From Planctomycetota bacterium (GTDB lineage: Bacteria > Planctomycetota > B15-G4): 64,000 nucleotides of DNA. The notes beneath the pieces are model-generated. The model saw nothing but the letters and a program-made list of their open reading frames with translations, ran no database searches and was not told the DNA's origin. Of the stretch, positions 46,413 to 62,199 are shown piece by piece (within the stretch, counting starts at the first letter, position 1; every line of letters starts with the position of its first letter). A program made the translations under genes and the position numbers. The stretch is taken from assembly GCA_021604805.1 (NCBI GenBank), contig BQJR01000005.1, positions 62,001-126,000 on the forward strand. Reading direction: 5' to 3'.

Positions 46413-49400
46413 TCAGCCCTGCTGATTCTCCTCGGCGGGCTCGAGCTTGCCGAGGTGCTCGAGGTAGTGCTGCAGCGCCTCGATCTGGCTCTGTGAGTCG
46501 CCGTTGCGCCAGCTCTCGTCGTACTGCGCGTCGTACTCGCCTTCGCTGAACTCGCCGAAGAAGTTGGGCATGCGCGTGCCGGGCGTGATGACCTGCGGGT
46601 CGAGCAACCAGTCGTGCACCCAGTCGGTCTTCAGGCGGTGTTGCGTGAGCGCGAGATCGGGGCCCCAGTTGCCGGGGTCGCTCTCGGGCAGCACGTCGCC
46701 CGACGGGTGACAGGAGTTGCACTGGTAGGTGTTGAACAGGTCTTCGCCACGACGGTAGAGCTCTTCGTCGACGGTCTTCTCGAGACCGCTCACGGGCTCG
46801 AAGGGCCAGGCCTGATCCGCCTGCGCCGCGAACCAACGCACCAGCGCGAGCGACTCGTGCTCGCTCAAGCCGAAGGTCGGCATGCGAACGTTCACGTGGG
46901 TGCGCACGATGTAGGGATCGAGCAGGAAGTCGAAGAGCCAGTCGGGGTTGCTCTTGGCGCCTTGCCCGCGCAACACCGGCGGACGCATGGCCGAGTCGTC
47001 GATGTAACGACCCATGCCGCCTTCGCCCTCGCCGTAGACCAGGAACTCGCCGGGGATCTCGCGGTTCTCGGGGTCGTCCTCGAAGAACTCGTAGAGGTCG
47101 TAGTCCTCTTCGAGCTCGGCGTCGTAGAACTCGTCTTCGAGCCAGGCGTGCGCCGCGAAGAGTTCTTGGCCGTTCACGACCACGGGCTGCGCGGTCCAGG
47201 CGCCGTATTCCATGGCTTCGTCGATGACTTCCTCGAGGCCTTCGAGCGCGTCGTCGAAGTCTTCACCCTTCTCGACCAGCATGTACTGCGGCAGCTGGCC
47301 CATGCGGTGACAGCCGATGCAGTTGTACTTGGTGATCAGGCGCGAGCCCTCTTCCACCAGCGCGGCGTCGCCATCGAGTTGCACCTTCATGGTGGGGTCG
47401 ATGCCGTCGGCGCGCAGGCCGAGCAGGAACTGGACCACGAGGTCGTTCTCGGCGTCGTCGAGATAGAAGTTCGGCATCTTCAACTTGTCGTTGGGCGCCT
47501 TGACCTTCTGCTCGTACTTCTCGATCACATACTCGCCGTCGACCTTGCCGATCACCGGCAGGCGGTCATAGGCGCGCGGGTCTTCCAGCTTGCGCTCGTA
47601 CCACGCGCGACGGCTGTGACCGATCGCTTCGGGGTTCGTGTGCGCGGCTTCGTGACCGAAGTCGAACTTGGTGATCTCCTTCAGGCTCTCGTAGGTGAGC
47701 TCGGTGCCGATGCCCACGTCGTCGTAGTGACCGGGCACGAGGTGGCAGCCCGAGCAACCGAAGCGCTCGAAGAGCTTCTGGCCGACGAAGACTTCCACGC
47801 TCTCGCCGTCGGCGCGCATGCGCGCCACTTCGTCGCGCGCATAGTTGTCACCCGCGATCGACGCGAGGTGCGTGACCGCGATGTCGTCGAGGATCTGCGC
47901 GTCGGCAGCGGGCGGTGCGGTCTGCTCCCACTCTTCGCTGCGCTGATCCATGAGCCACGCCGTGATGTTCCAGGCTTCCGCGTCGGTGAGACGCAGGTCC
48001 GGCATCACGCTCGTGTGGTAGTAGGCCTTCGGGTCGCGGATCCAGTTGTAGAGCCACGTGGAGTTGACCTTGCTGCCGATGGCGGAGAGCTCGGGGCCGT
48101 GGTCGTTCTCAGTCCAGCCTTCACCCTCCATCGAGTGACAGCCGAGGCAGCCACGCGACTCGAAGGTGGCCTTGCCGGCGGCGATGTCGCCTTCACCGGC
48201 GGGCGGCGCTTCCATCGAGTAGCTGCCAGCGTCGAGCTGCTCCTGGCTCTGGTGCAGGAGGTACGCACTGATCGCGCGCGCTTCGACTTCGTTGCGCGCG
48301 CGCCAGTCGCCGACCCAGCGGTCGCTGTTGTTGTCCCACTCGGCGTCGGGGCTGATCGTGTCTTCGGCGTGCGCACCGCTGTTCGACTGGTTCCAGAAGT
48401 GCGGCATCCGCGTGCTCGGGCGGAAGCCCTGCGGATCCATGAGCCACTTCTGGATGAACTCGGGCGTGGTCTTGGCCTGCAGGTTGGTCAGGTCGGGACC
48501 GGGCTTACGCAGGTGCTCGAAGCCCTGGATCTTGTGACAGCCGTAGCAGCCGAGATCCTCGACCAGCGCGCGCGACTCGTTGTACTCGGGCACGCCGGGG
48601 ATGCGGTCGGTGCTGTCGTGGCACTGGAAGCAGGACGAGTAGAGCTTGTCGCTCGGCGTCATCGGCCAATCCCAGTAGTGACGGTCGGGCTCGTAGCCCC
48701 AGTCTTCGATCCAGCGCGCTTCCTTCTCTTCGGCCGTCTCGATCATCTGGCCTTCGTGGAAGGTCGGCGCCGGCGTGTGGAAGGTGCGCGGGAACTCCAC
48801 GCGCTGACCGTTGCCCTGGTGGCAGGTCGTGCAACCGAACTCGCCGATGGGGTGCGGGCTGCTGTCGGTGAGGAACAGGTCGAGGCGCGGGTGCGCATTC
48901 AACACGCGCTCGCCCTTGCCGGCCAGCGGGCCGTCGCCGCCCTTCTCGTTGAGCGGGTCGTGGTCGATGTAGAACGGGTTGTCGATGCCGACGTGGCAAG
49001 TGGTGCACATGTCCACCTTGCCGACGTACTGGAAGTTGTAGTTGTCGCGCAGCTTGTCGAGCACGACCTTCTCGACCTTGTAGGTCGGTGCGAGCATGTC
49101 GGCCATCGGCGCGTTACGGATGAAGTCGTTGAAGATGCCCGGGCCGATGGTGGCCAAGCTCTTCTCGGTGCGCACGAGGTCTTCGCGCAGGGCGTCGCGC
49201 TGACGCGTGAGCTCGGTCTGTTGCTCCTCGATCTTTTGGATCGCTTTCTTCTTGGCGAGCATCGCCTGGTTGGCGGAGTTGGCGGCTTGAGTGAGCTCGT
49301 CGACCTTGGCGGTCTGGGCTTCGAGAGCTTCGTCGGCCTCGGCCATGAGCTCGGCGTCCTCGCCGTGCAGCAGGCGCTCTTCTTCGTAGTTGTAGCGGAG

Positions 49401-50054
49401 CTCGTCGAGCTCGGACTTGGCGATCTTGTAGCGCTGGTCGGCGGCGTAGAACTCACCCTCCAGCACGAGCGCTTCGTCGCCCAAGGTGTTGAGCGTGTCG
49501 GCTTGGCCGGCGAGTTCCGCTTCGACCGCGGCGAGCCCGGCGTCGACCGTGGCGAGTGCCTCGGGATCGATGGCGGCTTCGGCATCGGCCTGCGCCAGCG
49601 TGAGGCGCGCGATCTCGTTCTGGCGGAAGGCCTCCTGCACGCCCTTCCAGTCGCGCACTGCGTCGCGGCGCCACATGAGCAAGATCGTGACGACCAGCAG
49701 CAGCGAACTCAGGATGAACCAGTTCACCACCGTGCGATCGGAGTGCAGACGCTCGTCGCCGAAGATCGTCTTGTTCACCGGCTGCATCGGGTAGACGTTC
49801 GCGGCGGACGGCTTCTTCTTGGCCGCCGGCTTCTTGGCCGCGGCCTTCTTCTCGGCGCCCTTGCCCGCGTCCATCTTGGCCTTGAGCGCGGCGATGCGCG
49901 CCTTCACGTCGCCACCATCATCGGCAGCGGGAGCGTCGCCCCCACCGTCGGCGGACTTGGCCGCAGCCTTCGGAGCCGCGTCGCCGCCGCCTTCCTTGAC
50001 CTTGGCGAGACGCGCCTTGATGGCGTCGATTTTGGCCTGCTTGTCGTCAGTCAT
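46413..50054 (-). CDS. Membrane-anchored octahaem c-type cytochrome with coiled-coil stalk
   Basis: 1213 residues. The first ~105 are a Lys/Ala/Gly-rich cytoplasmic segment (two IKARLAKVK/IAALKAKMD motifs, AEKKAAAKKPAAKKK). One transmembrane helix follows at about 112-130 (WFILSSLLLVVTILLMW). Residues about 140-310 are a long charged coiled coil. Then come eight CxxCH haem sites near residues 349, 407, 474, 502, 635, 766, 911 and 1111 (CTTCH twice, CFQCH, CYGCH, CLGCH, CSGCH, CIGCH, CNSCH), several within cytochrome c-type domains ending in RMPHFW, VMPDLRL, KMPNFYL, RMPTFGL or RMPNFFG with likely axial Met. It is the last gene of the Rieske/cytochrome b operon and probably the electron exit of the complex. 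Confidence 0.93.
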   Translation of the reverse strand: MTDDKQAKIDAIKARLAKVKEGGGDAAPKAAAKSADGGGDAPAADDGGDVKARIAALKAKMDAGKGAEKKAAAKKPAAKKKPSAANVYPMQPVNKTIFGDERLHSDRTVVNWFILSSLLLVVTILLMWRRDAVRDWKGVQEAFRQNEIARLTLAQADAEAAIDPEALATVDAGLAAVEAELAGQADTLNTLGDEALVLEGEFYAADQRYKIAKSELDELRYNYEEERLLHGEDAELMAEADEALEAQTAKVDELTQAANSANQAMLAKKKAIQKIEEQQTELTRQRDALREDLVRTEKSLATIGPGIFNDFIRNAPMADMLAPTYKVEKVVLDKLRDNYNFQYVGKVDMCTTCHVGIDNPFYIDHDPLNEKGGDGPLAGKGERVLNAHPRLDLFLTDSSPHPIGEFGCTTCHQGNGQRVEFPRTFHTPAPTFHEGQMIETAEEKEARWIEDWGYEPDRHYWDWPMTPSDKLYSSCFQCHDSTDRIPGVPEYNESRALVEDLGCYGCHKIQGFEHLRKPGPDLTNLQAKTTPEFIQKWLMDPQGFRPSTRMPHFWNQSNSGAHAEDTISPDAEWDNNSDRWVGDWRARNEVEARAISAYLLHQSQEQLDAGSYSMEAPPAGEGDIAAGKATFESRGCLGCHSMEGEGWTENDHGPELSAIGSKVNSTWLYNWIRDPKAYYHTSVMPDLRLTDAEAWNITAWLMDQRSEEWEQTAPPAADAQILDDIAVTHLASIAGDNYARDEVARMRADGESVEVFVGQKLFERFGCSGCHLVPGHYDDVGIGTELTYESLKEITKFDFGHEAAHTNPEAIGHSRRAWYERKLEDPRAYDRLPVIGKVDGEYVIEKYEQKVKAPNDKLKMPNFYLDDAENDLVVQFLLGLRADGIDPTMKVQLDGDAALVEEGSRLITKYNCIGCHRMGQLPQYMLVEKGEDFDDALEGLEEVIDEAMEYGAWTAQPVVVNGQELFAAHAWLEDEFYDAELEEDYDLYEFFEDDPENREIPGEFLVYGEGEGGMGRYIDDSAMRPPVLRGQGAKSNPDWLFDFLLDPYIVRTHVNVRMPTFGLSEHESLALVRWFAAQADQAWPFEPVSGLEKTVDEELYRRGEDLFNTYQCNSCHPSGDVLPESDPGNWGPDLALTQHRLKTDWVHDWLLDPQVITPGTRMPNFFGEFSEGEYDAQYDESWRNGDSQSQIEALQHYLEHLGKLEPAEENQQG

Positions 50055-50105
50055 CTCTTTGGGATCCGTGCGTGCAGCGCGTTCGGCTGTGCGCCGCGCG
50101 GGGAC

Positions 50106-51185
50106 TCAGATGTTGAAGAACCACTCGGGAATGCCCACCAGGTACTTCAAGTTGAAGAACCAGCGCAGGAGCATCTTGATCGGCAGCGAGCCCATCATCA
50201 GCAGCAGCATCACGAGGACGCTGAAGCGTGCGAAGCCGAGTTCGTGGAAGAACTTCTTGAGCACGGTGACGGCCAGGATCGCTGGCGTCACGATGAAGTA
50301 CCCGAGCACCAACAAGATGCCCGGCAGCTCACGCACCAGTGGGTTGTCGGGCATGCGCGTGTCGAGCATCGACACCCAGAAGTACTCCGACAGGTTCACG
50401 TTCACGAGCGCTTCGACCTTGTGCGGGTCCCAGTACTCGAAGGGTCCGAAGAAGTTCCAGTTCGGACCGCGCAGGAAGGTGCCCATGATCACGAGCAGCA
50501 CCCACATGATCAGGAAGCCGAACATGAACATGCCGATGGCGAACGGCCGTTCCTTGAACGTGTAGTAGCCGTTGCCCTTCGGGTTCGTGTCGATGTACGG
50601 GATCGCCATCAGACCCACGACGATCATGCCCGGCAGCACCACGCCCGCGAGCCACGGGTCGAAGTACACGAGCATTTCCTGCAGACCCAGGAAGTACCAC
50701 GGCGCCTTGGCCGGGTTCGGCGCGCGGCTACCCGAGGCCGGCTCTTCCAGCGGCGCCTCGACCATCACGGCCCAGGCGATGAAGGCCGCCGAGAGCAGCA
50801 CCGTCATGATGAACTCGGGGAACACCAGGTCGGGCCACACGAGCACCTTCTTGCCACTCTCGGTCGCCTCGTTGGGCGGCAGACCGCGCTCGAGGCGCAT
50901 GTCATTGAGCGTGGCTTGGCGGAACGCCAACCAAAGGAAGAACAACACGCTGAACGTCATGATGACGATCGGCATGTTGTCGCCCTTCTTCAGGATCGTG
51001 GCGAAGTCGTGATTCTGCGCGCCGACGACGAAGAAGAGTGCGGTGAGCCCCATGATCCCGAAGGCGACCTTCGGCTGCATCATCTGCCGCATACGCAGCA
51101 TGTAGAGCGCGAAGATCGCCGTGCAGATCCCGATGACGAGTTCGGGGGACGCGAGCGAGTTGAAGAAGGCTTCGAAGGTTTCCAC
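50106..51185 (-). CDS. Cytochrome b subunit IV-like membrane protein
   Basis: 359 residues, about eight hydrophobic helices. The first ~85 residues hold two to three extra helices absent from PetD/subunit IV (VIGICTAIFALYMLRM, AFGIMGLTALFFVVGAQ, PIVIMTFSVLFFLWLAF). The core begins with VLVWPDLVFPEFIMT and includes PNPAKAPWYFLGLQEMLVY, the Qo-site segment where b6f and bc1 have PEWY; here the Glu-containing tetrapeptide reads APWY. DTNPKGNGYYTFKERPFA is another typical segment. It lies 12 bases after the b6-type gene, so together they make the split cytochrome b of a quinol oxidase complex. Confidence 0.88.
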   Translation of the reverse strand: METFEAFFNSLASPELVIGICTAIFALYMLRMRQMMQPKVAFGIMGLTALFFVVGAQNHDFATILKKGDNMPIVIMTFSVLFFLWLAFRQATLNDMRLERGLPPNEATESGKKVLVWPDLVFPEFIMTVLLSAAFIAWAVMVEAPLEEPASGSRAPNPAKAPWYFLGLQEMLVYFDPWLAGVVLPGMIVVGLMAIPYIDTNPKGNGYYTFKERPFAIGMFMFGFLIMWVLLVIMGTFLRGPNWNFFGPFEYWDPHKVEALVNVNLSEYFWVSMLDTRMPDNPLVRELPGILLVLGYFIVTPAILAVTVLKKFFHELGFARFSVLVMLLLMMGSLPIKMLLRWFFNLKYLVGIPEWFFNI

Positions 51186-51197
51186 GCCAGGCGTTCC

Positions 51198-51971
51198 TTA
51201 CATGGGTCCCGAGATGCCGCCGTCCTTGCGGACGCGCCAGAAGTGCACCGCCATGAACAGGCCCGCGGCGAGCGGTAGCGCCACGCAGTGCAAGACGTAG
51301 AAGCGCAGCAGTGCCGCGGCCCCCACGAAGCGCCCGGCCAACAGGCCGAAGCGGATGTCACTCGCCGGTGTGACCAAGGCCACGTCGCCCACGGCGAGCA
51401 AGCTCGCACCCGGGCCCTCGTGACCGATCAGCGGATGGGCGCGCGCCATGTTCGAGCCGACCGTGATGGCCCAGATGGCGAGCTGGTCCCAGGGCAGCAG
51501 GTACCCGGTGAAGGACAGCAGCAGCGTGAGCAACAGCAGGATCACGCCGATGTTCCAGTTGAACTCGCGCGGCGGCTTGTAGCTGCCGGTGAGGAACACG
51601 CGCAGCATGTGCAACCACACGGCGAGCACCATCATGTGGGCGCCCCAACGGTGCAGCTCGCGCATGATGCCCAACGGCACGTGCTCTCGCAGCGCGATGA
51701 TGTCGTTGTAGGCGTACTCGATCGTCGGGCGGTAATAGAACATCAACAGCACGCCGGTGATCGTCTCGAGCAAGAACAGGAAGAACGTGATCCCGCCCAT
51801 GCACCAGGTGAACGAAAGGCGGATACCGCTCTTGCGTGCCTTCACCGGGTGCAGGTGGAGGAAGATGTTCGAGAGCGCGGCCAGTGCGCGGTTTCGCGGT
51901 GTGCTCGGATAGCCGTGTCTGAAGATTGATCTCCAGATCTGCGTCTCCGCGATCATCTTGAACAGGCTCAA
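51198..51971 (-). CDS. b6-type cytochrome b (N-terminal half)
   Basis: 257 residues with four transmembrane helices. Axial haem ligands are His107 and His121 on helix B (ELHRWGAH...WLHMLRVF) and His228 and His243 on helix D. The 14 residues between the helix D ligands equal the b6f value; bc1 complexes have 13. Cys57 in WCMGGITFF aligns with the cysteine of cytochrome b6 that binds the extra haem c_n. [11 protein letters not shown] and [11 protein letters not shown] are Qo-side features. It works with the Rieske and subunit-IV-like proteins to oxidise menaquinol. Confidence 0.93.
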
Positions 51972-52039
51972 GGCTGCAGACCTCCGGGTCTAAAAGTTCA
52001 GCGCGCGACGGGGCTCGCGCGGGAGGGTACGGGGAAGGA

Positions 52040-52618
52040 TCAGATCTTCAGGAAGGCCTCGGGGTTGACCCACTGGCCCTTCTCCCATTGGTACTTCTGG
52101 TTCTTGTCGACCAGGATCTGGCCGTCGAGGGCGAGCACGATGCGCCAGCGTTCGAGCGGGCGCGGTGCGGGGCCTTCGAAGTTCATGCCGCTGGTGCGGA
52201 AGCCGCTACCGTGGCACGGGCATTTGAACTTGCTCGCGGCCGGCTGGTACGCGGGGATGCAACCCAGGTGGGTGCAGACGGTGCTCAGCGCGAAGATGCC
52301 GGGGATGCCGTCGCGACCGGAAAGCGGGTCGGTTTCGGTGCGCACGATCCAGGTACCGTTCGTGTCCTTGAAGGACTCGTCGACACCGACGGCGAAGTTG
52401 CTCGGCGCGCCCGCCTTGAAGGTTGCCGGCGGCTCGTAGAGCACGTTCGGCATCAAGAAACGAACGATGCCGAGGGTGCCCACCCCAGCGCCTGTGAGGA
52501 ACAGACCCCAGCCGGCGAGCAACGCGCCGGTGACCGCCTCGCGACGAGTGACCTTCTTGGGGTCACGCGAGGGGTTCTGGGAGTAAGTGGCTTGTTGAGA
52601 GGCTTCGGTGGTAGCCAT
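52040..52618 (-). CDS. Rieske iron-sulfur protein
   Basis: 192 residues. A twin-arginine-like motif (KKVTRREAVTG) precedes one transmembrane helix (31-55), which stays as the membrane anchor. The 2Fe-2S site is complete: Cys115-Thr-His117-Leu-Gly-Cys120 and Cys133-Pro-Cys135-His136-Gly-Ser-Gly-Phe, with Cys120 and Cys135 forming the disulfide. It begins 3 bases after the HEAT-repeat gene and precedes cytochrome b by 68 bases. It takes the first electron from quinol and passes it to the cytochrome c subunit. Confidence 0.95.
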   Translation of the reverse strand: MATTEASQQATYSQNPSRDPKKVTRREAVTGALLAGWGLFLTGAGVGTLGIVRFLMPNVLYEPPATFKAGAPSNFAVGVDESFKDTNGTWIVRTETDPLSGRDGIPGIFALSTVCTHLGCIPAYQPAASKFKCPCHGSGFRTSGMNFEGPAPRPLERWRIVLALDGQILVDKNQKYQWEKGQWVNPEAFLKI

Positions 52619-52621
52619 GGG

Positions 52622-53701
52622 TCAGGACGTCTCCGGATCGACACCCATGTCGTGCAGCGCATCCAAGGCCGCAGACTTTACTTTCATGGAACGGTCGTCG
52701 CGACGCAAGGCCTGCAAAACAGACACGAACGCCGGGTCGCCGAGGCGAGCCGCAGCGCGGCACGTGAGAATCATCATGTCGTCGACGTACTGGTCGCGCG
52801 CAGCGGCACGCGAGCCCTCGCTCAGCTGGGCGAGATCGCCCGGCACGCCAGCGTCGGGCCCGTAGGCCTCGCGGTCGAGAAGGTGCAGCAGCACGGGCGT
52901 GGCGCGTTCGTCTTGCGCCATTCCCAGCCAGATCGCCGCGTTACGCACCATTTGGGTTTCGGAGCTGCGCAGCTGCTCGACGAGCACCTCGCGCGCCTCA
53001 GCCGTTTCCAGGCAGGCCACGGCGTCGAGCGCCATGCGCCGCTCCATCACGCTCGACGACTCGAGCAGCGGCACGATCTGCGCCAGACTCGACGGCTCCT
53101 TCAGCGCGCCCAGCGCCTTGAGCGCGCCGATGCGGACCGTCTCCGAATCCGAAGCGAGCGCCTCGAGGACCACCGGCGCGAAACTCGGATCGCGCTTACC
53201 GGCCAGCACGAGCAGCAACGCGTAGTGCAGTTCGTCGCGCTCGGTGGCACTGCGGCTGGTGTCGGCGGCCAAGGAGCCCAGCGTGCCCTGATAGAAGCCG
53301 AGCAGCTCGTCGTTGCTGATCGAGCTCAGGTCGAGACGCCCGGTGTTCACGCCCTGAGCCAGCTCGTGCAGCTTGAACCAGCGCTCACTCGTGCCCGCCG
53401 TGCGAATCTCGGAAAGCAGCTCGGGAGCGGTGGCATCCGAGGCGCCAGCCAGCAAGCGCAGCAGTAGGTAGATGGCCGTGAGGCACACCACGAGGATCAG
53501 CGGGAAGACGAAGAACTGCGGCAGCGCGCCGAGAAAGGAGCCTGGCACCTGCTCGCCGGGCTCTTCATCGAAGCGTTCTTCAGCCTCGCCAGCGCCCTGA
53601 CCGACCTCTGGCACGCCCGTCGAACTGGACGGAAACACACCATTCGCGCCCGAATTCGAGCCTGAAGCGGCGGAGGCGGAGGTGGCGGGCAGGTCCGGCA
53701 T
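52622..53701 (-). CDS. Membrane-anchored HEAT-repeat protein heading the Rieske operon
   Basis: 359 residues. A Ser/Gly-rich N-terminus (1-52) leads to one transmembrane helix (about 62-84, FFVFPLILVVCLTAIYLLLRLL). The rest consists of HEAT-like helical pairs: FAPVVLEALASDSETVRIGALKALGAL, QIVPLLESSSVMERRMALDAVA and VLVEQLRSSETQMVRNAAIW fit the pattern (cited here as short extracts of residues 170-265). HEAT proteins often serve as assembly scaffolds. Its position 3 bases before the Rieske gene suggests an assembly factor or extra subunit of the quinol:cytochrome c reductase. Confidence 0.82.
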   Translation of the reverse strand: MPDLPATSASAASGSNSGANGVFPSSSTGVPEVGQGAGEAEERFDEEPGEQVPGSFLGALPQFFVFPLILVVCLTAIYLLLRLLAGASDATAPELLSEIRTAGTSERWFKLHELAQGVNTGRLDLSSISNDELLGFYQGTLGSLAADTSRSATERDELHYALLLVLAGKRDPSFAPVVLEALASDSETVRIGALKALGALKEPSSLAQIVPLLESSSVMERRMALDAVACLETAEAREVLVEQLRSSETQMVRNAAIWLGMAQDERATPVLLHLLDREAYGPDAGVPGDLAQLSEGSRAAARDQYVDDMMILTCRAAARLGDPAFVSVLQALRRDDRSMKVKSAALDALHDMGVDPETS

Positions 53702-53965: not shown

Positions 53966-54907
53966 ATGCCCGAAGCGCTGCGTATCGACCACCTCCGCAA
54001 GACCTACGGCGAGACCGTCGCCGTGGACGACATCTCGCTGAGCGTGCAGGAGGGCCGCATCTACGGCCTCGTCGGCCCCAACGGCTCCGGCAAGACGACC
54101 ACCCTCTCCTGCGCCCTCGGCCTGTTGCGCCCCGACTCCGGCGAGCTGCGCGTGCTCGCCCAGCCACCGGGGCGTCTCGCCGAAACCAAAGGAGCGCTCG
54201 GCGTGGTCTTCGACGACCCGGTGCTGCTGCCCGGTCTCAGCCTCCGCGCCAACCTCGGCTACGCGCGCCGCCTGCTCGGGCACTCGGGCGGACGCAGCGA
54301 TGCCGAAGTGCTCGAGCTCGTGGGCATGCAGGGCGTGCCGGCGAATCGTCGCGCGCACGGCCTCTCGCTGGGACAAGGTCGACGCGTGGCCATCGCGCGC
54401 GCGCTGCTCGGCAAGCCGCGGCTGCTCGTGCTCGACGAACCGCTCTCCGGCCTCGACACCGTGGGCGTGCGCGAGATGCTGCGTCTGTTCAAGCGCCTGC
54501 GCAGCGAGGGCATCACGCTGCTGCTCTCCAGTCATCGCTTGCACGAACTCGAGACCATCGCCGACGACATCGCGATCCTGCTCTCGGGACGCGTGGTCCG
54601 CGAAGCGCCGCTGCCCGAACTGCTCGGCGAACAAGCGCGTCGACTGGAACTGCGCGCCTCGCCGCCGGCACAAGCCCTCGCCGCGCTCGAAGCACTGCAA
54701 GGCATCGGCTCCGTGGTCGCGCTCAACGACGACCGCCTGCGCGTCGACCTGGGCACTCGCGAACCCGAAGAGTTGGCGCGCGCCCTGCACGAGGCCGGCT
54801 GCGCGCTGCACGCCTTGGTGCCCGAACGAAGCAGCCTGCAAGCCGTGTTCGAAGCTCTGCTCGACGAACAACTCGTCGGCACCACCCCCGGTGAGGCGCA
54901 GGCATGA
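53966..54907 (+). CDS. ABC transporter ATP-binding protein (ABC-2 type)
   Basis: 313 residues. Walker A GPNGSGKTT, Q-loop region FDDPVLLPGLSLRANL, signature LSLGQGRRVAIARALLG, Walker B LLVLDEPLSGLD and switch His (LLLSSHRLHELE) are all present. The sequence after residue 215 is an extra domain as in ABC-2 exporters such as the CcmA/NatA group. ATG at 53966. The stop overlaps the permease start by 4 bases. It powers export or membrane remodelling by the adjacent permease; the substrate is unknown. Confidence 0.93.
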   Translation: MPEALRIDHLRKTYGETVAVDDISLSVQEGRIYGLVGPNGSGKTTTLSCALGLLRPDSGELRVLAQPPGRLAETKGALGVVFDDPVLLPGLSLRANLGYARRLLGHSGGRSDAEVLELVGMQGVPANRRAHGLSLGQGRRVAIARALLGKPRLLVLDEPLSGLDTVGVREMLRLFKRLRSEGITLLLSSHRLHELETIADDIAILLSGRVVREAPLPELLGEQARRLELRASPPAQALAALEALQGIGSVVALNDDRLRVDLGTREPEELARALHEAGCALHALVPERSSLQAVFEALLDEQLVGTTPGEAQA

Positions 54908-55770
54908 CGGGCACCCTGCGTGTGTTCCGCGCTGAGTGGTATCGCATCGTGCACGGGCGGTCGGCCTACGTGGCGCTGGCCTTCCTGATCGTGGTGCCCG
55001 TGGTGCGCGTGGTGGCGGCCTACTTCGACCATCTGTCGCGGCACGGGTCGGCGGTGATGCGCGCCCACGAGACCGGCCGCGACGCGCCCGAGTTGCTGCC
55101 CGGCAACGCCTACCAACCGCTCGTCGACGCCTGGGCCACCGGGCTCGTGTTGGGCGCGCTGCTGCTGCTCGTGGCGGCGGCGCTCTCGATCGCCGGCGAC
55201 CGCGAACGCGGCGTCCTGCGACTGGCCACCACGCGCAGCGCCACGCGTCGCGCGCTCGTGCTGGGGCGCGCACTGCTCGGCTTCCCGCTGGTGCTCTGCG
55301 TGATCGCGATCACCGGGATCGCGGCCTTCGCGGCCTCGGCGATCCTGTTCGAGTTCGGCCCGCTCGTGGAGTTCGGCTTCGAGATGGCCAGCTCCGCCGA
55401 GCTCAGCGGCGAGCTGCAACTCGCCGTGCTCGCCACGCTCCCGCCGCTCTACGCCGCGTGGTGTTTCGGCCTGCTCATGTCGAGCTTGGTGCGCGGCCCG
55501 ATCTTCGCCGTGAGCGCGAGCTTGCTGTTGCTGCTCGGCTTCGACCTCTTCAAAGGCGTGCTCGGCGAGGGACAGTACTGGGTCTTCGCCGCCTTCGCCC
55601 CGTCCTTCATCGACAGCTCGTACATGGGCGAGATGTCGTCGATCGCAGCCGGCATGTCCGACGCGATGTTCGCCGACGAACTCTTCCGCATGAACATGAT
55701 CCTGCCTTGGCCCGAGGCGGCGCTGTTGCTCGCGTTCGCATGCACGGCCCTCTCGCGGAGAACTCTGTGA
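54904..55770 (+). CDS. ABC-2 type permease
   Basis: 288 residues, about six transmembrane helices with a large extracytoplasmic loop after the first (YFDHLSRHGSAVMRAHETGRD). The pattern AGDRERGVLRLATTRSATRRALVLGRALLG after helix 2 is the amphipathic coupling helix of ABC-2 permeases. It overlaps the ATPase upstream (ATGA) and the PDZ lipoprotein downstream (GTGA). NosY- and GldF-like proteins have the same layout; the partners downstream here are unlike either. Confidence 0.88.
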   Translation: MTGTLRVFRAEWYRIVHGRSAYVALAFLIVVPVVRVVAAYFDHLSRHGSAVMRAHETGRDAPELLPGNAYQPLVDAWATGLVLGALLLLVAAALSIAGDRERGVLRLATTRSATRRALVLGRALLGFPLVLCVIAITGIAAFAASAILFEFGPLVEFGFEMASSAELSGELQLAVLATLPPLYAAWCFGLLMSSLVRGPIFAVSASLLLLLGFDLFKGVLGEGQYWVFAAFAPSFIDSSYMGEMSSIAAGMSDAMFADELFRMNMILPWPEAALLLAFACTALSRRTL

Positions 55771-56708
55771 TCTCTCATCGGTGGAACACGCTGGCGCGCG
55801 CGCTGTGCCTCGCCGCGCTCGGACTCTGCGGCGTGGCTTGCACCTCGGCACCGATCGCTTCGATCCCGGCGCCCCACCCGACAGCCGGTGAGTGGACGCT
55901 CGACAGCGAAGGCGGCGCCTTCCTCGGCTTGGCTGTCGAAGCCAACGAGGCTGGCACGCTCGAAGCGCTCGAAGCCGAACCCGGCGTGCGCGTGTTGCGC
56001 GTGGTGCAGAACTCACCAGCCGCGCACCAAGGCCTGCGCGTGGGCGACGTGCTGCTCAGCTTCGCCGGCGTGAAACTCGCCGACCCCGTGGTGCTCGACG
56101 TGCTGCTCGCCAAGGCTGAATCCGGAGCCAGCGTGCCGCTGCAGGTGCGCCGCGGCGACTCGGTCTTCGCGCTCGACGTGACGCTCGCGGGCGGACAGGG
56201 CGGCCCCGTCGCCGCACCTGAGTTGCTCTACGTGGCGGACCCCACGCGCACGCTGGCCGGCTGGCGCAGCACGCCGAACGGGGTGCTGCTCGTGGCCCTC
56301 GCCGAGAGCTCGCCGCTGCTGGCCGCGGGCTTCGAACTCGGCAGCAGCGTGACCGCGCTCGACAGCGACGCCGTGCACTCCGCCGGCGAACTCGTACGCC
56401 GCGTGAACGCGCTGCCCGCCGGCGCGCGCGTGAGCTTCGAGTTGCGCGACCCGCGCGGTCAGGCGCGCACACTCGACGCACGCCTCTTCGAAGTCCCCAC
56501 GCGCGTCACGCGTTCCCGCGTCCCCGTGCTCTGGGACTACGACGCCAAAATCGACGGCAGCGCCACCGACCTCCACCTGCTCGACTTCTGGTTCCTCGAA
56601 CTCTTCCAGTTCCGGCGCCGCGGCGGCGAGCGCGAGTGGGTGTTGCTCGAACTCTTCGGCTACGAGCTCTTCGCCTGGGGACAGGGCACCGGGGAACTCA
56701 GCGAATGA
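55767..56708 (+). CDS. PDZ-domain lipoprotein
   Basis: 313 residues from a GTG at 55767 that overlaps the permease stop. The N-terminus is a lipoprotein signal ending in LGLCGVAC. Residues about 45-140 form a PDZ domain (VRVLRVVQNSPAAHQGLRVGD, then VLLSFAGVKLADP), and residues about 160-240 a second PDZ-like domain (GVLLVALAESSPLLAAGFELG). The final 60 residues are rich in Phe, Trp and Leu. No protease domain is present, so it is a scaffold or peptide-binding adaptor on the periplasmic side, most likely for the coupled ABC exporter. Confidence 0.85.
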   Translation: MISHRWNTLARALCLAALGLCGVACTSAPIASIPAPHPTAGEWTLDSEGGAFLGLAVEANEAGTLEALEAEPGVRVLRVVQNSPAAHQGLRVGDVLLSFAGVKLADPVVLDVLLAKAESGASVPLQVRRGDSVFALDVTLAGGQGGPVAAPELLYVADPTRTLAGWRSTPNGVLLVALAESSPLLAAGFELGSSVTALDSDAVHSAGELVRRVNALPAGARVSFELRDPRGQARTLDARLFEVPTRVTRSRVPVLWDYDAKIDGSATDLHLLDFWFLELFQFRRRGGEREWVLLELFGYELFAWGQGTGELSE

Positions 56709-58285
56709 TGCGGCGCCTGTGTGCTTGCCTGCTGATCGCGAGCGGCTCGCTCGCGGCACAAGTCGCGTGGAACGACACGGTGCTCGCGCTGCCGGGCCGC
56801 GTGCTCAGCACCGAAGTCTGCACGCTCGGTGACAACGCGCGCCAAGAACTCGTGATCGGCTTGTGGAACCGCGAGCTGCGGCGTCGCGAACTGCGCATCC
56901 ACCACGTGGAGCAAGGTCGACTCTCCGCGGAGCCACGTCTCGTCATCCCGATCCTGGAAGACATCGTGGCCTGGGGCGTGGCCGAACTCGACACGGACAC
57001 GGCGGGCCCCGAGCTGCTGCTGCTCACACCGAACAGCGCCTGGAGCTACCAGGTCGCGCCGGGCAGCTACGCCAACAACGCGCGCAAACTCTTCGACCAC
57101 CCGCTGCTCTTCGACCTGCCCGACCGCAGCAGTCTGCCGCGTTGGCGACACGTGGTCCCGATGCCCGGTGGCGACCAACTCGTGCTGCCGTCGTCGTCGG
57201 GATACAGCTGCTGGGCACCGGTCGCGGGCGACCCCGAAGGTGCTTGGGCTGAGACGGCGCGCTTTGCTGTCGACGCGCCTTCGAGCCGTGGTGAAGGCGG
57301 CGCGGGCGACGCGTCCGTGCAAGTCGGCCGCGACGGCATCGTGCTCTCCGCCAGCGCACGCGCCGGCCTCGACGTGGGCCAGGAACTCGACGGCTGGTTG
57401 AGCGCACCGCTGCTCAGCGTGACGCGCAGCTTCCGAGCGCCCGGCCTCGTGGACATGGATGGCGACGGCCTGCTCGACATCGTGCGCCTCGCCCGCCGCG
57501 TCGTCTCGATCCACCCCGGGCGCAGCGCCGGTTTCCTGGCCACACCTGAGCGCGACGTGCTGCTCCCCGACCTGTTGTTCGACAGCGAGGTCGAGAGCCG
57601 CGACTTGCTGCTGCGCGATGTCGACGGCGATGGCGACACCGACATCCTCGCGCTGCTCGAAGGCCCCGAGATCGGCATCCTCGACAAGAACCACGAACTC
57701 AGCCTGGTCGTGCTGCGCAACACGGGCGGCGGCGAACTCAGCGATCGTCCGCAACTGCTGCGATTCCGCGGCGTGCGCCTGCGCGCTTCCGTGGTCGACG
57801 TGGATGCCGACGGCACGCTCGACCTCGTGGCCGATGTCTTCATCACACCCGACCTCGGCGCGCTCACCTCCCCCGACGAGCTCGACGCCACCCTGCGCAT
57901 CTCGGTCTTCCGCGGCCGCGGCAAGGGCGAGTTCGAACGCTCACCCTTCGTGCGCTTCGAACACGTGGTCGGTGCCGCGAACTTCGACCAAGCCGTGCAG
58001 CAGCGCGAGCTCAGCGGCGACTTGAGCGGCGACGGGCTCGGCGACCTCGTCACCTCCGACATCCTCGGCCGCGTGGGCATCCACCCACTCGAGAAACACA
58101 GCAGCCTGTTCGGCGGCGCGTCGTGGAAGCTGCCGACCACGCCCACCACGCGCCTGCCGACTTCCACGGGGCGCAGTGACTTGCAACTCAGCGACCTCAA
58201 CGGCGACGGCCTGCACGACCTGATCAGCACTCACGAGTCGCGCGTGATCGTCTACCTCTCGCAGCTCACGGGAGCGTCGCGATGA
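56705..58285 (+). CDS. Secreted FG-GAP/VCBS-type protein (first of a pair)
   Basis: 526 residues from ATG 56705, overlapping the PDZ gene as ATGA; a second ATG follows directly. Signal peptide 1-18 (MMRRLCACLLIASGSLAA). The mature part contains calcium-loop repeats such as DMDGDGLLDIV, DVDGDGDTDIL, DVDADGTLDLV, DLSGDGLGDLV and DLNGDGLHDLI, so a beta-propeller is expected. It is coupled to an ABC exporter operon, which is unusual for this family. Confidence 0.85.
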   Translation: MMRRLCACLLIASGSLAAQVAWNDTVLALPGRVLSTEVCTLGDNARQELVIGLWNRELRRRELRIHHVEQGRLSAEPRLVIPILEDIVAWGVAELDTDTAGPELLLLTPNSAWSYQVAPGSYANNARKLFDHPLLFDLPDRSSLPRWRHVVPMPGGDQLVLPSSSGYSCWAPVAGDPEGAWAETARFAVDAPSSRGEGGAGDASVQVGRDGIVLSASARAGLDVGQELDGWLSAPLLSVTRSFRAPGLVDMDGDGLLDIVRLARRVVSIHPGRSAGFLATPERDVLLPDLLFDSEVESRDLLLRDVDGDGDTDILALLEGPEIGILDKNHELSLVVLRNTGGGELSDRPQLLRFRGVRLRASVVDVDADGTLDLVADVFITPDLGALTSPDELDATLRISVFRGRGKGEFERSPFVRFEHVVGAANFDQAVQQRELSGDLSGDGLGDLVTSDILGRVGIHPLEKHSSLFGGASWKLPTTPTTRLPTSTGRSDLQLSDLNGDGLHDLISTHESRVIVYLSQLTGASR

Positions 58286-59946
58286 CGACTCGTCCGATCC
58301 TGACCGCCGCGCTCGCGCTCACGCTGTTGTTGCCGGCCGGCATCGCGCGCGAGGACGGCTTCGTGGCCTCCGGCATCGTGGAGACCCAAGGCGACAACGT
58401 GCTCGCGCTGCGCGACGTCGACGGGGACGGCGACCTCGACCTGCTCGTGATCGACGAGCTCGGCGTGAGCTTGCGGCGTCTCAGCGCCGAAGGCAGCTAC
58501 CCGCGCGAAGCCGACGACGTGCTGCTCTGGCCGGCACGCGACCTCGGCTGGGAACTCGCCGACCTCGACGGCCGCCCCGGCACCGAAGTCGTGATCTTCG
58601 CCGACGGCGCCCTGCGCAGCTGGGCCATGAGCGCCGAGGGATTCGCCGAGCCGCGCGAGCTGTTGCGTGACAAGAGCGCACGCATCCCGCGTGGCTTGCG
58701 ACGCCTGCGCCTCGCGCGCGATGTCGATGCCGACGGTCACATGGACGTGGTGCTGCCCGGCGTGAGCCAATACCGCATCCACCGCGCGGGCGGCGAAGGC
58801 TTCGAGGCGCCGCTGCGCGTGGACTTCGAAGCCACGGTCGAGCTACGCGTCGGCGAACCCGCCACCCTCGATCAACGCTTCACGCAAGCGATGTCGATCC
58901 CGCGTCTGCGCGTGCGCGACTTCGACGGCGACGGCCTCAACGACCTCGTGAGCGAAACCGACGAGATGCTCTCGGTGCACGTGTCGGATCCCGAGATCCC
59001 CACCGAAGCCACCTGGGCACTCGACCTGCAAGCCTTGCGCGACGAACTCCCCAAGACGCTCGACCTCGAGAACCTGCTCGGCGCGATCCAACTCGTGAAC
59101 TGGAGCACCGCCGACCTCGACGGTTCCGGCGCACACGACTTCGTGCTGCAACACGGCGGCACCTTCCGTGTCTGGCGCGACGGCACACGCCGCGGCATCG
59201 ACGGCCCGCCCGACAGCGTGCTCAAGTCGAGCGGCAACGTGCTCTTCTTCTTGCTCCGCGACGTGCTCGGCAGCGAGCTCCCCGAGCTGCAGATCGTGCG
59301 TGGCGAGGAGATCTCCGTGGCGCGCGTGCTGCACTGGGTCGTGGCCGGCGGCGCGCTCGAGTTCGACATCTACACCTACGCCAACGAGGCCGGCGAACTC
59401 GGTCGCAAACCGGCGCGCAGCTCACACGTGCGCTTCGAGATCCCGCCGCTGTTCTCCTTCCTCGAAGAGGTCGACAAGATCCAGGAAGAGAGCCGCGCGA
59501 AGGCGCACATCCAAGCGCAGCGCGTGGCGCTCGACGCCGACGGCCTGCGCAACGACGTGGTCGACCTGGTCGGCGGCGAGCTGTTCTTCTTCCACGATGT
59601 GGTCGACGCCGAAGCCGAAGAGAGCCTCATGGATCAACTCAGCAGCTTCGACCTCACCGAGCTGCTCGAGCGCTACTTCCTGGCCGACATCGATTCGCTC
59701 GCCGACGACGGCACCTACACGCTCGACCTCGCCGAGGAACTGCGCCAGATCGAGTTCACGCCGGCGGCCGCGCTGCAGGCTGCCGCACACAAGGTCGCGC
59801 CCACGCTCGTGCTGCCCAGCCCGGTGCCCGGCGAAGGCCGCCTGCTCGTGATCGACCTCGACAACGATGGCCTCACCGACGTGATCGTCACCGGGGAGAC
59901 GAGCAACGGGACGCCGCTGGTCGGGGTGCTGGTCGCGCGTCACTGA
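58282..59946 (+). CDS. Secreted FG-GAP/VCBS-type protein (second of a pair)
   Basis: 554 residues, start overlapping the preceding gene by 4 bases. Signal peptide about 1-21 (MTTRPILTAALALTLLLPAG). Repeats DVDGDGDLDLLV, DVDADGHMDVVL, DFDGDGLNDLV, DLDGSGAHDFV and DLDNDGLTDVIV mark the family. Between repeats, residues 380-470 form a helical insertion (FLEEVDKIQEESRAKAHIQ). It is similar in layout to its neighbour, so the pair may be an old tandem duplication. The last 59 bases overlap the end of the convergent NRDE gene. Confidence 0.85.
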   Translation: MTTRPILTAALALTLLLPAGIAREDGFVASGIVETQGDNVLALRDVDGDGDLDLLVIDELGVSLRRLSAEGSYPREADDVLLWPARDLGWELADLDGRPGTEVVIFADGALRSWAMSAEGFAEPRELLRDKSARIPRGLRRLRLARDVDADGHMDVVLPGVSQYRIHRAGGEGFEAPLRVDFEATVELRVGEPATLDQRFTQAMSIPRLRVRDFDGDGLNDLVSETDEMLSVHVSDPEIPTEATWALDLQALRDELPKTLDLENLLGAIQLVNWSTADLDGSGAHDFVLQHGGTFRVWRDGTRRGIDGPPDSVLKSSGNVLFFLLRDVLGSELPELQIVRGEEISVARVLHWVVAGGALEFDIYTYANEAGELGRKPARSSHVRFEIPPLFSFLEEVDKIQEESRAKAHIQAQRVALDADGLRNDVVDLVGGELFFFHDVVDAEAEESLMDQLSSFDLTELLERYFLADIDSLADDGTYTLDLAEELRQIEFTPAAALQAAAHKVAPTLVLPSPVPGEGRLLVIDLDNDGLTDVIVTGETSNGTPLVGVLVARH

Positions 59947-60802
59947 AGCTCACGCTGTGCAGGTCGCGCACGGAGGCTTCGCAAGGTTGGCCGGCGAGGT
60001 AGTGCATCGACACGGCGTCGGGTCGCGCGCGCACTTGGGTCAGGCTCACGCTGCGCGCTTCGTCGCGGTGCATGCACACGCTGAAGCCGTCACCGCGCGG
60101 AGCTTCGTGGCGGTGCGAGGCGTGCCAGCGCAACTGGGCGGCGGCGAGCGCCTGCGCGTCGGCATGCGGCGCGGAGCTCAGCGTGGCGAAGAGCGCGCCA
60201 CGCGCGGCGGCCACGGCGTCGGGCTCGATGCGACTCGACACGAACACACCGTCTCCTGAATGACGACTGCGCACGAGTTGCGCGCCGTCCCACTCGATGC
60301 GTTCGACGTCGGCAGGACGCGAGCTGTCCCCGCGACGCGCCACGAGCAACTTGAAGGCCTTCTCGCGCAGAGCGCCGCTCGCCGCGCGCGCTTGCAGCTC
60401 GGCGAACACGCTCTCGGCATCCGGCGCGCGCATGAGTTCGAGCACGAGTTGGCCGCGGCTGGGCGCGTCGTCGGGCGCGACGCGCGCGGGGGGACGGTCG
60501 CCGTTGAGCACGCACAGGCAGCGTCCCGATTCATCCACGGCGATCCAGGTGCCCCCCGCGTCCGCGTCGGTGGGCGCGAGCACGCGCGGGAGCGGCGCTG
60601 CGTCGACGCTCGGCGGCGTGTCCATGCTCGGCGGCGTGTCCGCGCTCAGCGGCGTGTCCGTGCTCGGCGACGCGAGCTCGCCTTGCGGCGGAAGCGTGCG
60701 CAGGCTCGGTGCTTGCGCCAAGCCGCGGCGGGGGCTTTCGTCACGGTTGGTGGCGAGCAGGTAGCCGCCGTCGGGCAGCACCAGGAAACTCACGGTGCAC
60801 AT
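59888..60802 (-). CDS. NRDE (TANGO2-like) family protein
   Basis: 304 residues from ATG 60802. It begins MCTVSFL with the candidate nucleophile Cys2, then the defining NRDE motif (LLATNRDESPRRG), GGTWIAVDESGRCLCVLN and GQLVLELM. The family has an Ntn-hydrolase-like fold and unknown function; eukaryotic TANGO2 affects lipid and haem handling. Residues about 46-70 are an inserted low-complexity stretch of T/A/M/V-D-T-P-P-S hexapeptides. The gene begins 5 bases after the CstB-like gene and ends inside the convergent FG-GAP gene. Confidence 0.85.
   Translation of the reverse strand: MCTVSFLVLPDGGYLLATNRDESPRRGLAQAPSLRTLPPQGELASPSTDTPLSADTPPSMDTPPSVDAAPLPRVLAPTDADAGGTWIAVDESGRCLCVLNGDRPPARVAPDDAPSRGQLVLELMRAPDAESVFAELQARAASGALREKAFKLLVARRGDSSRPADVERIEWDGAQLVRSRHSGDGVFVSSRIEPDAVAAARGALFATLSSAPHADAQALAAAQLRWHASHRHEAPRGDGFSVCMHRDEARSVSLTQVRARPDAVSMHYLAGQPCEASVRDLHSVSFSDARPAPRPAASRCSSPR
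60605..60670. repeat. 18-bp tandem repeat within the NRDE gene
   Basis: About three and a half imperfect copies of an 18-base unit (GCTCGGCGGCGTGTCC plus two bases) encode the hexapeptide repeats of the NRDE protein. Copy number changes would leave the frame intact. Confidence 0.85.
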
Positions 60803-60807
60803 CGCGG

Positions 60808-62199
60808 TCAGGCCACCGGGGTCTCGACCGGCAACTCGGCCTCGACCCAACCGCCGGTGCCTTCGCGGATGTCGGTGAGCGCGTGCAGGCCGGCGCGTTC
60901 GAGCAGGCAACAGGCGGAGCTGCTGCGGTAGCCGCCCTGGCAGATCACCGCGTAGTGCGCGCCGGGATCGAGTTCGCCGCTGCGTTCGGCGAGCTGGCCG
61001 AGCGGGATGTTGATGGCGCCGGGCACGTGGCCGTTCTCGTGTTCGCCTGGGTTGCGCACGTCGAGCACGCGCGGGGCGTCGTCACGCTGCAGACGTGCGT
61101 GCAACTCCTGCACCGAGACGCGTTCGCGCGTGGCCAGCGGGCGACCGGCTGCGACCCACGCGTCGACACCGCCGGCGAGCATGCCGTCCACGTGTTGCAA
61201 CCCGACGCGCGCCAGTCGCATCACGGCTTCTTTGCACTGCGCGTCGTCGTCACCGAGCAAGATGAGGCGCGTGTCGGTCGGGATCAGGCTGCCGGCCCAA
61301 GGAGCGAAGCTTCCGTTGAGGCCGATGTTGAGCGCGCCGGGCGGATGACCTTGGGCGTGCGCGTCGGCGTGACGCAGATCGAGCAACAGCGCGCCTTGCT
61401 CGAGCAACGGTGCGACCTCGTCGGGGTAGAGCGGGCAGGCTTGCGGGAGCTCGTCGAGTGGCACGGCGCCCGCGCGGTTGAGCGCCACGCTGTGCGGGAA
61501 GTAGGGCGGCGGCGGGGCGAGGCCGGTGGTCATGCGTTGCACGAAGTCCTCGCGGGACATCGGCTGCAGCGCGTGATTGGTCTCGCGTTGACGACCGATC
61601 GTGCACGAGAGCGCCGCGGAGATGTTGCGACCGCAAGCGGAGCCGGCGCCGTGCGCGGGGAAGACCTCGGTCTCGTCGGGGAGCGTGAGGATCTTGTCGC
61701 GCAGGCTGTCGTACATCAGGCCGGCCATCTGCTCGGCGGTGAAGCCGCGTCCGCCGGCGAGGTCGGGGCGGCCGACGTCGCCGATGAAGAGCGTGTCGCC
61801 GGTGAGCAGCTTGGCGGGCGCGTCGGGTGCGGCGTCGTCGCTCACGAGCAGGCACAGACTCTCGGGGGTGTGACCAGGTGTCTCGAGCACTCGCAAACGC
61901 ACCGTGCCGACGCGGATCTCGTCGCCTTCGTGCAGCGGGCCGTGCGCGAAGGCGGCGTCGGCGGCGTGACTGATGTGCAGCGTGGCGCCGGTGCGCTTGG
62001 CCAGTTCGAGATGCCCGGAGACGAAGTCCGCGTGCAGGTGGGTCTCGATCACGTGGGTGATGCGCAGGCCGCGCTCTTCGGCGGCGGCGAGGTAACCGTC
62101 GACATCGCGCTGCGGATCCACGATGACGCACTCGCCGGCGTCGCCGATCAGGTAGGAAGCGTGCGCCAAGCAGCGCAGATAGAACTGGTGGAAGTGCAT
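60808..62199 (-). CDS. CstB-like persulfide dioxygenase-sulfurtransferase
   Basis: 463 residues. Residues 1-240 are a metallo-beta-lactamase-fold persulfide dioxygenase (THLHADFVSGH at 53-63, TGDTLFIGDVGRPDL, VFPAHGAGSACG). Then come two rhodanese modules: the first (about 265-360) has Gly-Asp-Asp where the catalytic Cys should be (RLILLGDDDAQ), the second (about 370-455) has Cys420 in VICQGGYRSS. This dioxygenase, pseudo-rhodanese, rhodanese order is that of Staphylococcus CstB, which turns persulfides into thiosulfate. Cys199 in LSCTIGRQR may match the CstB cysteine near the iron. It detoxifies sulfide-derived persulfides in the cytoplasm. Confidence 0.9.
   Translation of the reverse strand: MHFHQFYLRCLAHASYLIGDAGECVIVDPQRDVDGYLAAAEERGLRITHVIETHLHADFVSGHLELAKRTGATLHISHAADAAFAHGPLHEGDEIRVGTVRLRVLETPGHTPESLCLLVSDDAAPDAPAKLLTGDTLFIGDVGRPDLAGGRGFTAEQMAGLMYDSLRDKILTLPDETEVFPAHGAGSACGRNISAALSCTIGRQRETNHALQPMSREDFVQRMTTGLAPPPPYFPHSVALNRAGAVPLDELPQACPLYPDEVAPLLEQGALLLDLRHADAHAQGHPPGALNIGLNGSFAPWAGSLIPTDTRLILLGDDDAQCKEAVMRLARVGLQHVDGMLAGGVDAWVAAGRPLATRERVSVQELHARLQRDDAPRVLDVRNPGEHENGHVPGAINIPLGQLAERSGELDPGAHYAVICQGGYRSSSACCLLERAGLHALTDIREGTGGWVEAELPVETPVA

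Follow-up and report, generated by a model that had tools for sequence, protein, structure and literature searches.

A conserved Planctomycetota gene cassette joining an ABC-2 transporter, a PDZ lipoprotein and twin FG-GAP propeller proteins is very probably an undescribed cell-envelope machine

What does an ABC transporter do beside a PDZ lipoprotein and two secreted propeller proteins? This question is raised by a locus in the 64,000-nucleotide stretch of DNA analyzed here (the window), whose contig is part of a 4.47-Mb assembly of 11 contigs. Based on the ORFs and their Pfam domains, five genes follow one another on the forward strand between positions 53966 and 59946. The first two encode an ABC-type ATPase (53966 to 54907, 313 aa; ABC_tran, 101 bits) and an ABC-2 type permease (54904 to 55770, 288 aa; ABC2_membrane_2, 35.7 bits for a cut-off of 27.2). 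They are followed by the gene of a PDZ lipoprotein, with a GTG start (55767 to 56708, 313 aa; PDZ_2, 65.7 bits), and by two genes for secreted FG-GAP propeller proteins, FG1 (56705 to 58285, 526 aa; FG-GAP_3, 61.9 bits) and FG2 (58282 to 59946, 554 aa; FG-GAP_3, 49.7 bits). All four junctions are 4-nucleotide overlaps, ATGA at 54904, GTGA at 55767 and ATGA at 56705 and 58282, and a re-reading of the ORFs agreed exactly with the preliminary description in genes, coordinates and overlaps. No promoter-like sites were found in this region and its terminators showed no excess, which is uninformative. The 3' end of FG2 (59888 to 59946) shares about 59 bases with a convergent TANGO2/NRDE-domain ORF on the reverse strand (59888 to 60910).

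Whether this order is a local accident was addressed in other Planctomycetota. With the PDZ protein as lone query, full-length relatives were found in all five of the other genera of the family that were searched and in several other families, and around these relatives the other four genes were present in unchanged order. A profile built from 15 PDZ proteins was then run against 392 Planctomycetota genomes. The full-length protein, matching the profile over almost its entire length, C-terminal domain included (E ≤2e-34), occurred in 64 genomes from 16 families; the other matches listed lack the C-terminal end and look HtrA-type. When all reading frames of the 64 loci were searched with profiles, FG1 lay directly 3' of the PDZ gene in every one, and FG2 directly 3' of FG1 wherever the contig continues. 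Directly 5' of the PDZ gene was the permease in 33 loci and a fused ATPase-permease in 24 (57 of 64 together). Of the remaining seven loci, four stop at a contig edge, and for one of these the ABC pair was found where another contig ends. The other three, all from genus g8, have a cassette that is divided or not assembled in one piece. These g8 genomes were suspected of having lost the ABC pair, which proved wrong: in two of them (L150 and L151) it lies on the same strand 8-11 kb upstream, and in the third on another contig. The possibility, raised in the preliminary description, that the order is not conserved beyond close strains thus clearly fails, since it is kept in 16 families. Other searches gave less: FG1 as lone query returned no relative in the genome contig scan, and the close permease alignment comprised six loci, five of them from Planctomycetota metagenome assemblies.

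The overlaps themselves had been taken to mean that the five proteins are made together. They do exist, and more often than by chance: of 213 junctions across the 64 loci, 162 have an available start codon at offset -4, whereas no other offset has one at more than 33. However, 4-nucleotide overlaps point to close packing and possible coupling and are alone no proof of joint protein synthesis, and the g8 cassettes, with the ABC pair 8-11 kb from PDZ-FG1-FG2, indicate that strict co-translation is not required. Both points would suit a reading in which the five genes are merely co-regulated while their products work separately, or in which the grouping is accidental. Yet this reading is very improbable, given that the order is kept across 16 families where no other gene is kept, that the ABC parts are fused in some loci and that the components co-evolve. 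Pairwise distances of the ATPase, PDZ, FG1 and FG2 proteins correlate (r = 0.87-0.95), and a joint tree requires 14 changes of family for a possible minimum of 12 (with L123, which belongs to f19, counted under f29) and so largely follows the taxonomy. The correlated distances and this tree indicate mostly vertical inheritance of the cassette as a unit. Two distinct versions of it are present in family f32. We consider it almost certain that the five genes form one functional unit, as the preliminary description had supposed.

The surroundings of the cassette are variable. A conserved sixth gene was sought among the neighbours and none was found; flanking genes are common to two families at most, so that the cassette forms a unit of its own. 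In the window, divergent neighbours at 46413 to 53701 encode a HEAT-repeat protein, a Rieske protein, a split cytochrome b and a 1213-aa multi-cytochrome-c protein, and such bc-complex genes adjoin the cassette in several family f1 genomes only. Extra downstream genes were seen in some loci: one for a large FG-GAP_2 protein in L045 (13249 to 14508) and one for a DUF2891 protein in L046 (13439 to 14512).

The ABC pair has the features of an ABC-2 transporter. Walker A, the LSLGQ signature, Walker B and the H-loop are intact in the ATPase, with the residues of the last three invariant in the family alignment, and the permease adjoins the ATPase or, in 24 distant loci, is fused to it in an ORF with both domains. 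By hydropathy the permease has about six membrane spans without a large periplasmic domain, and it lacks any distinctive substrate signature and had no match in the PDB. Concerning known subfamilies, the ATPase scored 114.3 bits with the GldA equivalog model of NCBIfam (cut-off 402.6) and 123.7 bits with that of LptB (cut-off 240). GldA/GldF/GldG and LptB2FGCA resemble the present set in combining an ABC transporter with periplasmic or lipoprotein partners, but the other Gld and Lpt proteins are absent here. The top scores were obtained with the lantibiotic-protection model galliderm_ABC (154.6 bits, cut-off 309.75) and DrrA (150.9 bits, cut-off 312.45), both far below the values that would place the protein among drug or lantibiotic exporters. 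From these scores one could propose a resistance exporter in which the ABC pair would rid the cell of an antimicrobial or toxic lipid, with the propellers and the PDZ protein as periplasmic helpers. We find this improbable: such models are matched by ABC ATPases in general, the cassette has no regulator or biosynthesis gene beside it, and its largely vertical inheritance, together with a tblastn search of plasmids that gave no match, is unlike a mobile resistance module.

The third protein is a predicted lipoprotein with a GVAC lipobox at Cys25. This cysteine is kept in 94% of 62 PDZ homologues, and it seems to be missing in families f27, f52 and f73. The structural model contains two good PDZ domains, at 55920 to 56186 (residues ~52-140, retaining the F-L/V-G-L ligand loop) and 56244 to 56486 (residues ~160-240), followed at low confidence by a family-specific C-terminal beta-meander at 56511 to 56684 (residues ~249-306). 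The best structural matches were the PDZ tandems of DegP/DegQ and RseP, which, like GspC, carry periplasmic PDZ domains. The present protein differs from all of these in being a lipoprotein with its own beta-meander, the part that sets the family apart from HtrA-like PDZ proteins; no protease domain was detected in it with Pfam or NCBIfam, and the GspC model gave 12.7 bits for a cut-off of 200. A conserved C-terminal Arg of FG1, at which 41 of 61 proteins end, was considered as a PDZ ligand and dropped because the ATGA/GTGA overlap itself favours CGA or CGG as the last codon.

Is the PDZ protein then the link between the transporter and the propellers, as was proposed? An FG2 profile, run against the same 392 genomes, gave a bimodal result. 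Genomes matching at E ≤2e-79 were those of the PDZ set, apart from cases truncated by contig ends (checked for G047, G116 and G319), and 28 genomes matched less well, with initial alignments that mostly ended around profile position 450; G047, one of these 28, has the stronger type as well. In ten loci of the second group, from other families, the ABC genes are followed by FG1-FG2 without a PDZ gene. Seven more have the FG1-FG2 pair on short contigs or on contigs in which no ABC gene was seen. Single FG2-like genes, with neither FG1 nor an ABC gene adjoining on their strand, occur in L173, L182, L186, L190, L193, L170, L177 and L191, from families f66, f72 and f77. The existence of ABC-FG1-FG2 sets without PDZ means that the PDZ protein is not an obligatory link. 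A narrower version of the proposal, in which it binds FG2, is kept alive by a difference in FG2 itself. The last-blade region has 71-95 residues in all 57 PDZ-type proteins versus 31-34 in all 27 PDZ-less ones, owing to an insert of 40-60 residues in 57/57 and 0/27, respectively; since each FG2 type forms one clade in an FG1-rooted tree, the link between insert and PDZ gene is effectively one event and this perfect segregation is not independent evidence. In the window the insert corresponds to 59611 to 59790 (residues ~444-503) and is mostly helical. Both types meet in L127 (G173:C60, 1402 to 12966), where a PDZ-type cassette (fused ABC-PDZ-FG1-FG2) is nested inside a PDZ-less one, with the ATPase and permease genes of the latter before it and the FG1 and FG2 genes after it; only the PDZ-type FG2 has the insert. 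In the PDZ-less cassette of L189, a lipoprotein-like ORF lies on the opposite strand between permease and FG1 (~6040 to 7596 in cassette orientation). The best reading is that the ABC transporter and FG1/FG2 make up the machine core, to which the PDZ protein and the FG2 insert were jointly added, or from which both disappeared elsewhere.

The two propeller proteins begin with Sec-type signal sequences, read by eye, and both score above the FG-GAP_3 cut-off. Their profiles align end to end (436 columns, E 3e-48), and by this sequence comparison they are ancient paralogues with a common architecture, from a duplication that the FG2 tree places before the split of the PDZ-type and PDZ-less types. 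It is more fitting to regard them as a matched pair than as secreted products independent of each other. A beta-propeller that carries a long hairpin and helical insertions was modelled for FG2 (pLDDT 85), and its best PDB matches were FG-GAP-type propellers such as the PVL lectin. With FG-GAP/VCBS propellers in general (PVL lectin, the TcB propeller, integrin-like proteins) the pair shares the fold and the DxDxDG calcium-type loops, but it departs from them in its paired paralogues, the conserved hairpin, the helical insert in FG2 and the attachment of a single-copy family to one ABC pair. The whole genome (G000) has a large FG-GAP complement, with at least 150 FG-GAP_3 matches (605 candidates at first look); in spite of this, the FG2 family is single-copy there. 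As exporter and secreted proteins are fixed side by side, FG1 and FG2 could be imagined as cargo that the ABC exporter and the PDZ protein carry or tether to the cell surface. This is quite unlikely, because with Sec-type signal sequences they would not need an ABC-2 exporter to cross the inner membrane, and no surface anchor or sorting domain was recognized in either protein by the domain search.

The whole set matches no system in NCBIfam, Pfam or PADLOC, which bears out the earlier statement that it is not a known transport system; the permease, PDZ, FG1 and FG2 proteins gave no match with the anti-phage defence models of PADLOC. A full-text literature search returned no paper on this gene set, which may be described elsewhere. 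Beta-propeller proteins have been reported in a paper on Gemmata pores that contains no FG-GAP or PDZ term, so that no link to the cassette is claimed (PMC5287468). Among systems of comparable design, the set recalls NosDFY in its two-gene ABC-2 transporter without a large external domain and its dedicated periplasmic repeat protein. NosDFY is an ABC-2 transporter with a periplasmic partner that serves the maturation of nitrous oxide reductase. However, neither NosL nor nosZ accompanies our genes, and no NosD-type beta-helix protein adjoins the ABC genes, whose partners, FG-GAP propellers and a PDZ lipoprotein, show only PDZ and FG-GAP domains. By analogy only, the set also resembles Tol-Pal in having an inner-membrane energy source, a periplasmic propeller and a membrane-anchored lipoprotein, but with an ABC ATPase in place of TolQRA, an FG-GAP propeller in place of that of TolB and PDZ domains in place of the OmpA-like domain of Pal.

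These likenesses lead to the main alternative to transport, an energy-transducing assembly machine in which ATP hydrolysis would move the permease to act on periplasmic partners, and the propellers and PDZ protein would handle or assemble an envelope protein somewhat as TolB-Pal or PDZ chaperones do. The permease belongs to ABC2_membrane_2, the family of NosY, and for NosDFY a mechanical action of the ATP-driven permease on periplasmic partners has been proposed. The extracytoplasmic partners hold more mass than the transporter, and the PDZ tandem resembles those of DegP/DegQ/RseP. On the other hand, the domains of NosD, NosL, TolB and Pal are absent from the set and no constant client gene lies nearby, and we regard such a machine as rather unlikely.

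The explanation we prefer, if tentatively, is one cell-envelope machine made up of the products of all five genes. ATPase and permease would form the transporter in the inner membrane, and FG1 and FG2 would pair in the periplasm as calcium-stabilized propellers above the permease. The PDZ lipoprotein, with Cys25 as its presumed membrane anchor, probably docks on the FG2 insert as an added adaptor, and in this position may tie the complex to the other membrane or select what it handles. Through the ATP cycle, the machine would export an envelope substrate, small or lipid-like, or draw it out of the inner membrane, and the propellers would receive it. As no neighbour is constant and descent is largely vertical, this may be a common envelope substrate whose synthesis is encoded elsewhere in the genome. 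That the five products form one physical complex is likely, while to a substrate-moving exporter of the kind just outlined we give slightly less than an even chance. In a bolder version, which we consider less likely than not, a calcium-stabilized FG1/FG2 heterodimer seated on the ABC-2 transporter would act as a receiver or conduit in the periplasm; a single lineage would have acquired the PDZ lipoprotein along with the FG2 insert, and through them the machine would be coupled to selected clients or to the other membrane.

Since the genes are kept together across many Planctomycetota families, the five-gene set is very probably one undescribed cell-envelope machine. Planctomycetota have an unusual cell envelope and many uncharacterized large gene families, FG-GAP proteins among them. 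The cassette gives concrete access to these: it defines a candidate complex and a specific insert, its propeller pair is single-copy in a genome with at least 150 FG-GAP matches, and it occurs in nature in two types, with and without PDZ. If it is a transporter, it would represent a new partner arrangement for ABC-2 systems.
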